From Imperialibacter roseus (lineage in GTDB: Bacteria > Bacteroidota > Bacteroidia > Cytophagales > Cyclobacteriaceae): a stretch of 64,000 nucleotides of DNA. The notes beneath the pieces were generated by a model. It did no database searches. It was not told the DNA's origin and worked only from the letters and a program-made list of their open reading frames with translations. Shown piece after piece: positions 31,068-36,337 of this stretch (its first letter is position 1; each line of letters begins with the position of its first letter). The DNA lies in NCBI RefSeq assembly GCF_032999765.1, contig NZ_CP136051.1, positions 2,828,417-2,892,416 on the forward strand, read 5' to 3'. A program made the translations under genes and the position numbers.

Positions 31068-31724
31068 ATGCCGCTCGATCAAATTCAAAACCATATTTCC
31101 TCCGGAGCGAATGAACAATTAGCTGTTGCACTAAAACAAAGCCCGGAAAAAGCTCGCCTCACCACTTCCATGGGCGTGTCGTTGGTCACATTTGCTGCCT
31201 ATTACAGAAACCTGGAAGCCATAAGAACAATACGGGCATATCTTGACGATGTCACTATTCACGAAGCCTGCTGCATTGGAGAATTAGAGACTGTGAAAGA
31301 GCAGCTTCATAAAGCACCAGAGGTGTTGAACTCCTTTTCCGCAGATGGATTTACGCCGCTTGGGCTTGCCTGTTTCTTTGGGCACGTAAATCTGGCCGCC
31401 TATCTGATAGAAACTGGCGCTGATGCGAACATTGCTGCCAACAACGACTTTCGGGTGGCACCCATTCACTCGGCCTGCGCCATTTCGAGTGTGCCCATTG
31501 TAAATCTGCTGATAGCCGCTGGTGCCAACGTGAACCTCTCCCAGCAAAAAGGCATTCGTCCCATTCATTCAGCCTCCCACAACGGAAGCCTGGAAATCGT
31601 CAGAATACTTATAGCTGCCGGAGCTGACCATAAAATTGCAGATGAAAGCGGGAAAACCCCAACCGATTATGCACTGGAGAAAAACTACGATGAGTTGGTA
31701 GCCTATCTTAAGACATTGAGTTAG
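31068..31724 (+). CDS. ankyrin-repeat protein
   Basis: The 218-residue protein has about four to five ankyrin repeats from about residue 60 onward, for example GFTPLGLACFFGHVNLAAYLIETGA, RVAPIHSACAI and GIRPIHSASHNGSLEIVRILIAAGA. The N-terminal part (about 1-60) is degenerate repeat-like helix. There is no signal peptide, so it is likely cytosolic. Ankyrins bind proteins; the partner is unknown. It is convergent to the amidoligase operon with four bases between the stops, which is not evidence of joint function. Confidence 0.85.
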   Translation: MPLDQIQNHISSGANEQLAVALKQSPEKARLTTSMGVSLVTFAAYYRNLEAIRTIRAYLDDVTIHEACCIGELETVKEQLHKAPEVLNSFSADGFTPLGLACFFGHVNLAAYLIETGADANIAANNDFRVAPIHSACAISSVPIVNLLIAAGANVNLSQQKGIRPIHSASHNGSLEIVRILIAAGADHKIADESGKTPTDYALEKNYDELVAYLKTLS

Positions 31725-31728
31725 CCGG

Positions 31729-32442
31729 TTACCCAACCTTCTTTACCATAGCCTTATAGCTATTTAAAATCAATTTCAGAATGTCCTCAGGCCATTGATG
31801 ACCGCCGGCAATGTAGAACTTCTGATTGACCTCCAATTCTATCCCAGTGTAGGACGAGCTGTCAAATTCCTTCCTTAAGAAGGTGGTAAAGCCATCGGAC
31901 TTGCCCAGGTAGGGCTCGTTAAACTTCACTGCAAACATATCACTGAGTGATTTCATTTCACTCTTCCATTGACCACAAAACTCTTTCTCAGGTTTCTTTT
32001 TCGGATCGAAAAGCAGCCCGATGTCAACCTTTCTTTCCTTCCCTTCAAATATTGGGGTGAAGGTGTGCACCGAAATATGCACCACCCTATTGCCCTTGCT
32101 TACCCATTTGTATATCTGAGCATAAACGGTGTTTCGGTAAGGTGTATAATACTTGGTCAAAATATGCCGCCTGACTATTTTTTGTAGCGGTTTGGTGTAT
32201 TCAGAAAATAACGACTTATGATTGCGTGACCGGTTGAGCTCGACAAGCAGCCGTGAGGTGGTTGAGAAATAAGAACTATCGGCCTTTATCGCTTTCAACT
32301 GCTCGAATAATGCCAAAGCACCAATATCAAGCCCTCTGTGGGTCTTCAGCACCTCCGGTGTTTTGTTGAACAGGTACTCATACTCCTCGGGAATTTCATT
32401 GCCGCCATGCTCGCAGGTCAATATGAATTTTACCTTACTCAT
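31729..32442 (-). CDS. N-formylglutamate amidohydrolase-like hydrolase of the amidoligase operon
   Basis: This is a member of the N-formylglutamate amidohydrolase (FGase) superfamily, 237 residues. The motif CEHGGNEIP near the N-terminus matches the metal-binding HSG-type motif. THRGLDIGAL and NRSRNHKSLFS follow, then HISVHTFTP and YTGIELEVNQ carry other conserved residues. The start overlaps the GCS2 gene by four bases, and the gene closes the operon. By context it probably cleaves an amide in the product or intermediate made by the two ligases, rather than acting in histidine degradation. No hut genes are seen here. Confidence 0.88.
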   Translation of the reverse strand: MSKVKFILTCEHGGNEIPEEYEYLFNKTPEVLKTHRGLDIGALALFEQLKAIKADSSYFSTTSRLLVELNRSRNHKSLFSEYTKPLQKIVRRHILTKYYTPYRNTVYAQIYKWVSKGNRVVHISVHTFTPIFEGKERKVDIGLLFDPKKKPEKEFCGQWKSEMKSLSDMFAVKFNEPYLGKSDGFTTFLRKEFDSSSYTGIELEVNQKFYIAGGHQWPEDILKLILNSYKAMVKKVG

Positions 32443-33680
32443 CTTTTGGCCGACGGCAAAAACATTGTGTTGTTTTCGAGACAGCCTGCCAGCTCTTCGT
32501 AAAGACCAAGTAAGGCTTCATGACTAAAGCTCTGTCCCAGGTGCTTAATCATTCGTTCCGACAGGTTTCCCTGTGCTATGATAGCTCTTACGATGGCATT
32601 CGATTGATCCTTGTCGGCCATGTTAACTAAATGCTCCCAACATTTGGCAGCAGTAGCCGCCTTTTGCTCCATCCCAAAAAGCTTCAGGTATTGTCTATTG
32701 GTGATGGTATAGTTGCTCCCCTCTTTCACAACACTCAAAAAAATGGCAGCCAAATCGTCTTCATGCCAGCTCTTTTGCTCTTCGAAGCTACATAGCGTTT
32801 CGTTCACGAGTTCCTTTAGCAGGGCCACAATGACTTGCAGCACAGCGATATCTGCTGCCGGGCATTCCTGTATATCTATAATTCGGATTTCAATGGCACC
32901 ACGGTCGAACCTCGCAATAGCCCCTCTTGAATTCAGGAAATATTGATCCAAAATGCCGTCGGTATCGTAGCTGTTGATATCTCCTCTGATTCGCTGAAAA
33001 ATTTGCTTGTCGTATTCGGCTTGAGTGAACAATTGTTCCGGCACTACTTTCCCAGCAATAGACGGCACCTTCTCCTGATTGTGGCGGTAGGTCTCCAGCC
33101 TCGTGTCGACGAAGCCGCTCAGTTTACCATCCAATATGGGCGACGATGCAGTTAATGCCGGAATGATGGGCAGCAACACCCTGATGGCGGCATGCAGCCT
33201 GGCAAACTCCTCATCCCCCTGAAAAGGCAGGTTGATATGGGTGCTTTGCAAATTGCTCCATCCGTGCCCACGGCAGTCGAAGATGCGGTTGTAAAGCTCG
33301 TAGATATCGTTGTTCTCGTGTGGCCAGATAACCGTTTCCTTGTACGGATCCATCCAGGGATGTGCACCGCCGGGAAGCAGCATGGCATCGAAAGGTGCCA
33401 AAAGCCTGTTGATTTCCTGGATGTTTTCGTGAAATGGCTTGTCGAGGCCGTTGAGTGTGGCTGTTGGTCCATTGGTCTTGATCTCGATTACGTGAGACAC
33501 CAATTCGTTAGACCAGGCTATGCCCCCCCGATACACATCTGCAACAAACTCCCCAGTCACTTGCTTGAAAAGCTTGTCAGCTATTGGCAGGACATTGAGA
33601 CCCTTTCTGGAAACGATCATATACTCCATTTCCACCCCAAACCCGTCGAACAAGTGTAAGTTTCGCTTCTGCTCCGCCAT
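32439..33680 (-). CDS. GCS2-type glutamate-cysteine ligase-like carboxylate-amine ligase
   Basis: This is a 413-residue glutamate-cysteine ligase family 2 protein (glutamine synthetase-like fold). The motifs are GFGVEMEYMIV near the start, WPHENNDIYELYNRIFDCRGHGWSN with metal-binding side chains, and RFDRGAIEIRIIDIQECPAADIA. It is expected to activate a carboxyl group with ATP and couple it to an amine. Glutamate plus a second amino acid is the usual reaction. It lies four bases after the RLAN/RimK ATP-grasp gene and overlaps the FGase-like gene by four. The order and coupling suggest the three enzymes make and modify a single product. Exact substrate unknown. Confidence 0.9.
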   Translation of the reverse strand: MAEQKRNLHLFDGFGVEMEYMIVSRKGLNVLPIADKLFKQVTGEFVADVYRGGIAWSNELVSHVIEIKTNGPTATLNGLDKPFHENIQEINRLLAPFDAMLLPGGAHPWMDPYKETVIWPHENNDIYELYNRIFDCRGHGWSNLQSTHINLPFQGDEEFARLHAAIRVLLPIIPALTASSPILDGKLSGFVDTRLETYRHNQEKVPSIAGKVVPEQLFTQAEYDKQIFQRIRGDINSYDTDGILDQYFLNSRGAIARFDRGAIEIRIIDIQECPAADIAVLQVIVALLKELVNETLCSFEEQKSWHEDDLAAIFLSVVKEGSNYTITNRQYLKLFGMEQKAATAAKCWEHLVNMADKDQSNAIVRAIIAQGNLSERMIKHLGQSFSHEALLGLYEELAGCLENNTMFLPSAKR

Positions 33681-33684
33681 AGAC

Positions 33685-35145
33685 TTAGAGGGTTTTCTTT
33701 TGCTCTATTCTCCGTAAAAGGGAACCCAGCACTTTCCTGTAAAGCTCATCCTTCAAACAGTAGTCTTCTATGCCATGATCAAGGCTCGGGTTGTCATTCA
33801 CTTCGATGATATAAACGCTATTCCCTTTCTGCTTGATATCCACGCCGTACAGTCCACTTCCTATCAGGTTGGCGGCTTTTAAAGAAGTCTCGAGAACAAT
33901 TTCCGGCACTTTTTCTACAGGCATTGTTTCTGCATTGCCGTACTGATCGTCAGTTTTCGATTTCGTCCAATTGTATATCTGCCAATGATCCTTCGCCATA
34001 TAATACTTACAAGCGTACAACGGCTTGTTATCCAAAATGCCAATACGCCAGTCATAGTCAGTAGGCAAAAACTCCTGTGCGATAACCAAATCCGAATCAC
34101 TGAGCATTTTGTCGAGTATCTCGTCCAGGCTCTTTCGGTCAACTGCCTTCATCACTCCCACAGAAAAGGCGCTGTCCGGCTGCTTGAGCACAATAGGAAA
34201 GCCCAGCATCGCCTCCAGATCATTTCGGTTGTCTTTGTGTACAATGACTGTCCTTGGTGTCGAAATTTTAGCTTTGCCCAATGTTTCTGCTAAAAACACC
34301 TTATTGGTGCATCGCATAATCGAGATGGGGTCGTCAATCACCGGTATGCCGTCTGCAAAAGCCCGCCTGGCAAAGCGGTAGGTGTGGTGATTGACAGCGG
34401 TAGTCTCTCTGATGAACAGCGCATCATACTCAGAGACCCTGCTATAGTCCTCCTTGGTGATAAGATCAGCATAAAAGCCCAATTCCTCCCCTATGTCGAT
34501 AAATTTTTGGATAGCCTTTTTGTCCGAAGGTGGTGCCTTTTCATTTGGATTGACCAAAATTGCCAAATCGTAGATGGTTTTGGAGCTACGTTTTCCATCA
34601 TAGCGCTTTTTCTTAAAGTATTCGTTAGCAGACTCCTCGAGAAACGGCTTGTGGCTTTCCGGTATTTCCTTTACTGAAATGGGGCTTATGCCCTGTAATA
34701 CCCATTTTTTCTGAAACTGAAATTGAGCCCTGAGAATTGGTGCCTGAAACAGGTTGTACAGCGCTTTACTTAGTGTATCGTATTGAGGGCTGAGATTCTT
34801 GCCAAAGTAAATACTCAGGGCAAACTGGTTCGATTTGATCTTGGATAGGCTCTTCTGAATCAATTCATCAATTTCGTCGGTGATCACCCTCACGATGGTG
34901 CTTGACTTCAAATCCTGAATCGTTGTTACACTGGGGATCACTTTCTGCCCCCTGGCCTCAGCCAGCAGTGAGACGTAATATCCCGCCGATTGGTACCAGT
35001 AGTTTCGGGCCAGATTGAAAATTCTAACGTTCTTTATGTCAGCGTATTGAGGGTTGGTAAGGTAAGATCTAACTGCCACCACCTCTACTCCTTCAATGTT
35101 AAGCTGCCAGTCTTTAGGGTTGTTGATAACAACAATTTTTCTCAT
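33685..35145 (-). CDS. RimK-like ATP-grasp ligase with N-terminal RLAN domain
   Basis: In this 486-residue protein the first 190 or so residues are the RLAN domain (RimK-like ATP-grasp N-terminal domain), beginning KIVVINNPKDWQL and including ARGQKVIPSVTTIQDL. The C-terminal ATP-grasp has FPIVLKQPDSAFSVGVMK, AQEFLPTDYDWRIGILD and the metal-binding VYIIEVNDNPSL (Asn450 and Asn452). Such enzymes ligate amino acids to a carboxylate. The ATGA overlap with the peptidase gene upstream and the four-base gap to GCS2 tie it to the operon. RLAN proteins have been predicted, not demonstrated, to act in peptide-like metabolite synthesis. Confidence 0.9.
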   Translation of the reverse strand: MRKIVVINNPKDWQLNIEGVEVVAVRSYLTNPQYADIKNVRIFNLARNYWYQSAGYYVSLLAEARGQKVIPSVTTIQDLKSSTIVRVITDEIDELIQKSLSKIKSNQFALSIYFGKNLSPQYDTLSKALYNLFQAPILRAQFQFQKKWVLQGISPISVKEIPESHKPFLEESANEYFKKKRYDGKRSSKTIYDLAILVNPNEKAPPSDKKAIQKFIDIGEELGFYADLITKEDYSRVSEYDALFIRETTAVNHHTYRFARRAFADGIPVIDDPISIMRCTNKVFLAETLGKAKISTPRTVIVHKDNRNDLEAMLGFPIVLKQPDSAFSVGVMKAVDRKSLDEILDKMLSDSDLVIAQEFLPTDYDWRIGILDNKPLYACKYYMAKDHWQIYNWTKSKTDDQYGNAETMPVEKVPEIVLETSLKAANLIGSGLYGVDIKQKGNSVYIIEVNDNPSLDHGIEDYCLKDELYRKVLGSLLRRIEQKKTL

Positions 35146-35861
35146 TCTTTATCTGTCGGTTCTAAAATCAACAAGTTAGCATCATAGGTCACAATACCCA
35201 ACAAAATGGAGTTGATAAGCCTGTGCACGTCGACTTTATATTCGTTCTCTCCCGAAAGTGGGTTTTCCTGATAGGGATCGGACACCGAAACAATTCCGTT
35301 TTCGTCGATGGCAGTAAGCACTACGAAATGCCCCATGGGGTATCCTTTCAGGTCGTCGTAAACCGAGCGACCCTCGTCGTTGGCGTATTCTCTTTTGCAA
35401 TCGTACAGGTAAGTAGCGCTCAAGCCCGTGAGGATAGGGCGTCTTCTGTCGAGGTACTTCCTGATTAAGTCCACCGTTAAATCCTCAAAAGCAATTTCAC
35501 CGCCTCTGGTCAGAAACTCGATATATGAGTGGGTAGCATTTTCAAATTTCTTACCTCTTTTATACTTGAGCTGGGCTTTTAGTTTCTCAATCAGCTCATC
35601 GTGCGTCAGCGTGGACCAAACAGGGTCAAAAACATTGAGGTTATAAGAATGCATTTTCGCCTTATACCCCCTTTTCAGCGCATGAATGCCTAATAGGTTA
35701 CCCAAGGTGCCACCTTCTTCCAAAAATGTTACCTCATCTATTACCTGCTGCAGATTGATAAAATCGTGATAATAGTTGTAAACCGCATGCAGACTGGTTG
35801 GGCCGCATGTTTCGTCATCTGGCTGGTTCAGTATTTTGAAATAAGAAATTTTTGAGTGCAT
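35142..35861 (-). CDS. C39-like peptidase heading the amidoligase operon
   Basis: This is a papain-fold C39-family peptidase homologue of 239 residues from the ATG at 35861; a GTG at 35879 would add six. The cysteine is in DDETCGPTSL (Cys19 of the chosen start), the histidine in MGHFVVLTAID (His178) and the aspartate in SVSDPY (Asp195), in the usual order. There is no signal peptide or transmembrane segment, unlike ABC-exporter C39 proteins. Its four-base overlap with the RLAN/RimK gene implies it works on the same product, for instance as a maturation or recycling peptidase. The region between this gene and the divergent mgsA is 110 bp. Confidence 0.85.
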   Translation of the reverse strand: MHSKISYFKILNQPDDETCGPTSLHAVYNYYHDFINLQQVIDEVTFLEEGGTLGNLLGIHALKRGYKAKMHSYNLNVFDPVWSTLTHDELIEKLKAQLKYKRGKKFENATHSYIEFLTRGGEIAFEDLTVDLIRKYLDRRRPILTGLSATYLYDCKREYANDEGRSVYDDLKGYPMGHFVVLTAIDENGIVSVSDPYQENPLSGENEYKVDVHRLINSILLGIVTYDANLLILEPTDKE

Positions 35862-35971: not shown

Positions 35972-36337
35972 ATGAAATTAGCACTGATAGCACACGACGG
36001 TAAAAAACCAGAAATGGTCGCTTTTCTGCTTGGCAACAAGGAGTTGCTCGGAGGCATTGAACTGATTGCCACGGGTACCACAGGCCGGCATATTGAAAAT
36101 GCTGGCTTGCAAGTTCACAAAATGTTATCGGGCCCGCTTGGGGGGGATGCTCAAATTGCAGCCATGGCGGCGGAAAAAAACCTGGATATGGTCATCTTTT
36201 TCAGAGACCCGCTCGACAAGCACCCACACGAGCCCGATGTTCAGATGCTGATGAGGATTTGTGATGTTCACAACATCCCCCTGGCCACCAATCCAGCAGC
36301 CGCCAACCTTTTTCTAAAGGCAATCAAGAAGGCCTGA
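35972..36337 (+). CDS. mgsA: methylglyoxal synthase
   Basis: The enzyme converts dihydroxyacetone phosphate to methylglyoxal and phosphate, a bypass of lower glycolysis. It has 121 residues, shorter at the N-terminus than E. coli MgsA (152). IALIAHDGKK-like residues begin it (LALIAHDGKK). Asp59 in GPLGGDAQI and His86 in DKHPHEPD match the catalytic Asp and His of the family. ATG 35972 is preceded by a palindrome, GGGTAACTTTACCC (35942-35955), which includes a near-match to the -7 promoter element. It is divergent from the amidoligase operon. Confidence 0.95.
   Translation: MKLALIAHDGKKPEMVAFLLGNKELLGGIELIATGTTGRHIENAGLQVHKMLSGPLGGDAQIAAMAAEKNLDMVIFFRDPLDKHPHEPDVQMLMRICDVHNIPLATNPAAANLFLKAIKKA

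Follow-up and report, generated by a model that had tools for sequence, protein, structure and literature searches.

The window, the 64,000-nucleotide stretch of Imperialibacter roseus DNA analysed here, carries an operon of four genes, all on the minus strand and all assigned through Pfam.

35142..35861, minus strand: C39-like cysteine hydrolase, ATG start
33685..35145, minus strand: RLAN-RimK ATP-grasp ligase, core gene
32439..33680, minus strand: GCS2-type carboxylate-amine ligase, core gene
31729..32442, minus strand: FGase-like amidohydrolase, optional gene

The initial annotation placed four minus-strand genes at 31729-35861, spaced by -4, +4 and -4 bases, and took them for one translational unit. 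The open reading frame coordinates bear out this layout and support the single unit. For the C39-like reading frame, an in-frame GTG would lengthen the gene to 35879. All four domain assignments exceed the curated Pfam cut-offs, and none of the four proteins reaches an NCBIfam cut-off.

A methylglyoxal synthase gene (35972-36337, plus strand) lies upstream and is divergent, the two starts being some 110 bases apart; this pairing with the operon is not seen at the other loci. Downstream, an ankyrin-repeat gene (31068-31724, plus strand) is convergent with the FGase-like gene, and their ends are 5 bases apart. With one neighbour divergent and the other convergent, the operon therefore stands alone. 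An ankyrin gene is also found directly upstream of the C39-like gene at two Omnitrophota loci (L078 and L081). The closest named genome is that of Imperialibacter sp. EC-SDR9, whose ligase is 99% identical.

Domains and catalytic residues of the four enzymes

The C39-like protein matches PF13529/PF03412 (Peptidase_C39_2, 3e-8, 34.8 bits against a cut-off of 24). Its predicted triad, Cys19, His178 and Asp195, is present in 73-74 of 75 relatives, the remainder being gaps. The sequence has no hydrophobic N-terminus ahead of Cys19, in agreement with the earlier statement that the peptidase lacks a signal peptide; the protein is a predicted cytosolic hydrolase of the papain fold. Its AlphaFold model (pLDDT 88.5) resembles both peptide-cutting C39 domains and a glutathione-cutting phytochelatin synthase. 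The closest matches are the C39 domains of PCAT1 and ComA (Z 16), followed by the pseudomurein endoisopeptidase PeiR (Z 15) and glutathione-bound Alr0975, a glutathione-cleaving phytochelatin synthase (Z 14.9, within about 1.5 Z of the C39 rows). The phytochelatin Pfam family gives no match in this protein.

The RLAN-RimK ligase joins an RLAN domain (PF14401; 7e-50, 169 bits against 25) at residues ~26-171 to a pre-ATP-grasp and ATP-grasp region at ~190-486 (RimK, 2e-10, 41 bits against 21). Structure matches of its model span residues 189-486 only. The closest are LysX and ArgX (Z 28), and the ATP-grasp part also matches RimK (Z 26.6) and GshB (Z 22.6). The predicted Mg/ATP ligands D436, E448 and N450 are conserved, as is Arg367. 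A gene near some Flavobacteriaceae loci was considered as a RimK; it gives no RimK alignment and resembles D-Ala-D-Ala ligase.

The GCS2 protein matches PF04107 (2e-25, 90 bits against a cut-off of 21), and the Glu/His/Gln/Arg signature of the family is kept in at least 92 of 97 rows. It falls below the curated equivalog or subfamily cut-offs for glutamate-cysteine ligase and YbdK, namely TIGR02048 (34.1 of 249 bits), EgtA TIGR03444 (12.4 of 371) and TIGR02050 (52.4 of 176), and it may not use glutamate. In one genome (L032:3794-5013) the GCS2 gene is split across two frames, by a frameshift or a sequencing error.

The FGase protein matches PF05013 (8e-19, 69 bits against 28.9), and 2odf is its nearest solved sequence. 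Glu11, His12, His35, Asp39, His122 and His126 are invariant in all 66 of 66 relatives. An Ignavibacteriales genome encodes an FGase with a C-terminal HD-type domain that scores below the Pfam cut-off (L075:9705-10967). The description of the operon as two distinct ligases and two distinct hydrolases holds; the folds of the hydrolases are unrelated, and catalytic residues are kept in all four proteins. Judged by these residues, none of the four enzymes appears inactive.

Conservation of the ligase pair and the alternative partners of RLAN-RimK

RLAN is found in 35 of 296 genomes of the phylum. With matches above 280 bits counted, the GCS2 subfamily profile finds 24 of the 296, the host among them, and in all 24 the gene lies directly beside RLAN-RimK and nowhere else. 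The other 11 RLAN genomes of the phylum have a GNAT acetyltransferase instead, encoded as a single GNAT-RLAN-RimK chain in 10. At the 24 GCS2-type loci C39 is present in 22 and FGase in 16. A profile search of the tested genomes that lack C39 or FGase at the locus gave no copy elsewhere in the genome. The ligase pair is the constant part of the operon and the hydrolases are accessory. Co-conservation of all four genes stands for the two ligases, which form an inseparable core, but not for the hydrolases, which are not equally kept: C39 is absent from Flavobacteriaceae-type members and FGase from about a third.

A comparison of order and domains in other Bacteroidota finds the arrangement conserved there and well beyond. 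A set of 80 named loci shows the order C39-RLAN-GCS2-(FGase) in more than 10 phyla, at some loci without C39 or FGase. These are Bacteroidota, Balneolota, Ignavibacteriota, Fibrobacterota, Omnitrophota, Planctomycetota, Verrucomicrobiota, Spirochaetota, Nitrospirota, Thermodesulfobacteriota, Myxococcota and Pseudomonadota. Such recurrence over many phyla far exceeds chance. A Legionella plasmid record also carries RLAN, GCS2 and FGase genes in this order. The surveyed loci share no conserved transporter, regulator or precursor peptide.

Across 157 loci, the partner of RLAN-RimK is GCS2 in 96, GNAT in 52, both in none and neither in 9. These proportions should not be read as natural frequencies, because the 80 named loci were selected for their similarity to the ligase of this operon and a few of the 157 are near-copies or the same contig twice. 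In the two even samples by themselves the counts are 24 GCS2, 50 GNAT, none with both and one with neither; the 40 Pseudomonadota loci in an even sample include 39 with GNAT and none with GCS2. FGase is present in 65 of the 96 GCS2 loci vs 0 of the 52 GNAT loci. C39-like domains occur with either partner (70/96 GCS2 loci, 30/52 GNAT loci), and the GNAT of Pseudomonadota frequently carries a fused C39-like DUF3335 domain; fusion of GNAT to DUF3335 has been described previously (PMC10318531). One locus, L079, was counted as neither, since the GNAT two genes away is an unrelated RimI-like gene. The initial annotation had overlooked GNAT as the alternative partner.

The free maximum-likelihood tree implies at least two partner changes, but there is no rejection (p-AU 0.51) of a tree that unites all GNAT rows in a single clade. 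We therefore do not claim independent switches, which would amount to convergence. Exchange of GNAT and GCS2 may be one evolutionary event, and the partner rule does not count as repeated independent evidence. Though deep and clean, the rule may go back to that single event.

Other genes recur near these loci. A DUF155 (RMND1-like) gene sits beside both GCS2-type and GNAT-type RLAN loci in Pseudomonadota (L055:4304-5089, L057, L059 and L165:708-1508 are examples). Near GNAT-type RLAN genes, L173:55-1191 and 11 other Pseudomonadota loci carry a DUF2817 gene, whose product may be a zinc hydrolase and is perhaps the counterpart of FGase. In a Verrucomicrobia genome (L096:738-6273), GNAT and RLAN-RimK lie inside an argG-GNAT-RLAN-lysA-dapA string.

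A candidate pathway and its alternatives

The evidence establishes an intact set of linked ligases and hydrolases; everything beyond that we infer. The reading we tentatively favour, while holding it somewhat short of probable, is a cytosolic cassette of amidoligase type that both synthesises and turns over a small peptide-like metabolite with a gamma-glutamyl cap. RLAN-RimK would work like LysX, ArgX and RimK, activating a carboxylate with ATP and coupling it to an amine. GCS2 would add a gamma-glutamyl or similar acyl group to an amine of the same molecule, and in the GNAT type GNAT would do this capping job with an acetyl group. That either GCS2 or GNAT is present suggests that both supply an N-cap, with RLAN-RimK forming the other amide bond. 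FGase would remove or edit the acyl-glutamate bond from the GCS2 route. Its limitation to the GCS2 type points to that bond, and counts such as those above are expected if FGase acts on the GCS2 product. The C39-like enzyme could act on the substrate or product by cutting a peptide or isopeptide bond, much as phytochelatin synthase acts on glutathione. The lack of a conserved transporter, regulator or precursor peptide at the loci fits an internal metabolite.

A protein substrate is a live rival because LysX, ArgX and RimK, the nearest folds, all work on protein-borne carboxylates. Here the operon would carry out a reversible modification, modelled on RimK/RimB acting on ribosomal protein S6 or on Pup ligation. 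C39 would trim a protein terminus, RLAN-RimK extend the newly made C-terminus, GCS2 or GNAT cap an amine and FGase reverse the change. The RimI-like character of the GNAT partner and the recurrence of DUF155/RMND1 beside both locus types are in keeping with this. We nevertheless consider it unlikely: no conserved substrate protein or carrier adjoins the genes, one GNAT-type locus lies in the argG/lysA/dapA amino-acid string, and the RimK poly-glutamate residues are retained only in part. A ribosomal peptide pathway, graspetide-like or C39-processed, would account for an ATP-grasp ligase and a C39 peptidase in one operon. This we regard as very improbable, given that the 700 bases flanking each side hold no conserved small ORF, that there is no C39-ABC transporter, and that gene content stays constant across many phyla. 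A search for precursors among 186 small ORFs near the named loci returned a single two-member match.

The initial annotation had allowed for a gamma-glutamyl, peptide-like or small-thiol metabolite. The first two remain, we infer, the likeliest reading, while the small-thiol part is weakened. A glutathione-like thiol of low molecular weight would cast GCS2 as GshA, RLAN-RimK as GshB and C39 as phytochelatin synthase. GCS2 plus an ATP-grasp enzyme does parallel the reaction order of glutathione synthesis, and the models match Alr0975 and GshB at the Z scores given above. Yet GshB is a more distant match than LysX or RimK, the operon has no linked reductase or transferase, and BshC, which belongs to bacillithiol synthesis, occurs in 291 of the 296 phylum genomes, including the host, so the operon is an addition to the usual thiol and not its replacement. 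Being near-universal, BshC shows no anti-correlation with the operon. Most matches in a PF02955 survey are weak relatives and carry no weight here. We rate the thiol reading as improbable. Slightly less likely still is a unit for catabolism or salvage, for instance of gamma-glutamyl amines or peptides, with the hydrolases in the leading role and the ligases recapturing amino acids. It would account for two amide hydrolases in one operon, and the deformylase that acts in histidine degradation belongs to the FGase family; against it, the ligases are constant and the hydrolases optional, and we give it little chance.

Returning to the gamma-glutamyl-capped metabolite, the GCS2-or-GNAT rule predicts that the product bears a gamma-glutamyl cap in GCS2-type bacteria and an acetyl cap in those of the GNAT type. 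A broader version, that this is a hitherto unrecognised, widespread intracellular gamma-glutamyl peptide, unlike glutathione or bacillithiol, with its N-cap gamma-glutamyl in GCS2 bacteria and acetyl in GNAT bacteria, we regard as rather doubtful. That two intact ligases keep the same arrangement all the way from Bacteroidota to Planctomycetota, Spirochaetota, Nitrospirota and Pseudomonadota points to a common unseen metabolite or modification. The literature searched contains no experimentally defined product of such operons, and none of it names PF14401 or the RLAN domain.

Comparison with known systems

RimK, the S6:glutamate ligase, shares its ATP/Mg ligands with RLAN-RimK, which also retains RimK R64, R189 and N262; the two arginines are among the glutamate contacts. 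The poly-glutamate pocket residues of RimK have been defined (PMC10092738), and R203, R211, H215 and R216 are replaced in nearly all aligned RLAN rows. The amine substrate of RLAN-RimK thus need not be glutamate. RimK has no RLAN domain, and RLAN-RimK misses the TIGR00768 cut-off (70.9 of 143.4 bits). LysX and ArgX, of carrier-linked lysine and arginine synthesis, are nearest in fold, yet RLAN-RimK is below the LysX cut-off, and no LysW-like carrier gene is conserved beside the operon loci. The operon GCS2 shares a family match and the catalytic signature with YbdK, EgtA and cyanobacterial GshA, and Escherichia coli YbdK aligns with it over its length at 19% identity. Leader peptidases of the C39 bacteriocin type have a fused or adjacent ABC exporter and a precursor peptide, neither of which is conserved at these loci.

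N-acetylglutaminylglutamine synthetase combines a GNAT with an ATP-grasp. In N-acetylglutaminylglutamine amide synthesis (TIGR03103) GNAT is fused to an ATP-grasp ligase, as in the sister GNAT type described here, which gives weak matches to that model. The operon in the window differs in having GCS2 and not GNAT, and has no TIGR03103 match.

Iyer et al. 2009 (Mol Biosyst 5:1636) reportedly predicted RLAN-RimK/GCS2/GNAT/papain-like neighbourhoods, a type of amidoligase and peptidase gene linkage to which this operon also belongs. Two later papers cite that work for such neighbourhoods (PMC4431377 and PMC10318531), and the comparison with it is made through them; the counts for linkage, optional hydrolases and partner exclusivity come from the present analysis. 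Burroughs et al. (PMC4431377) read linked genes for an ATP-grasp and a COOH-NH2 ligase or GNAT in a similar way.
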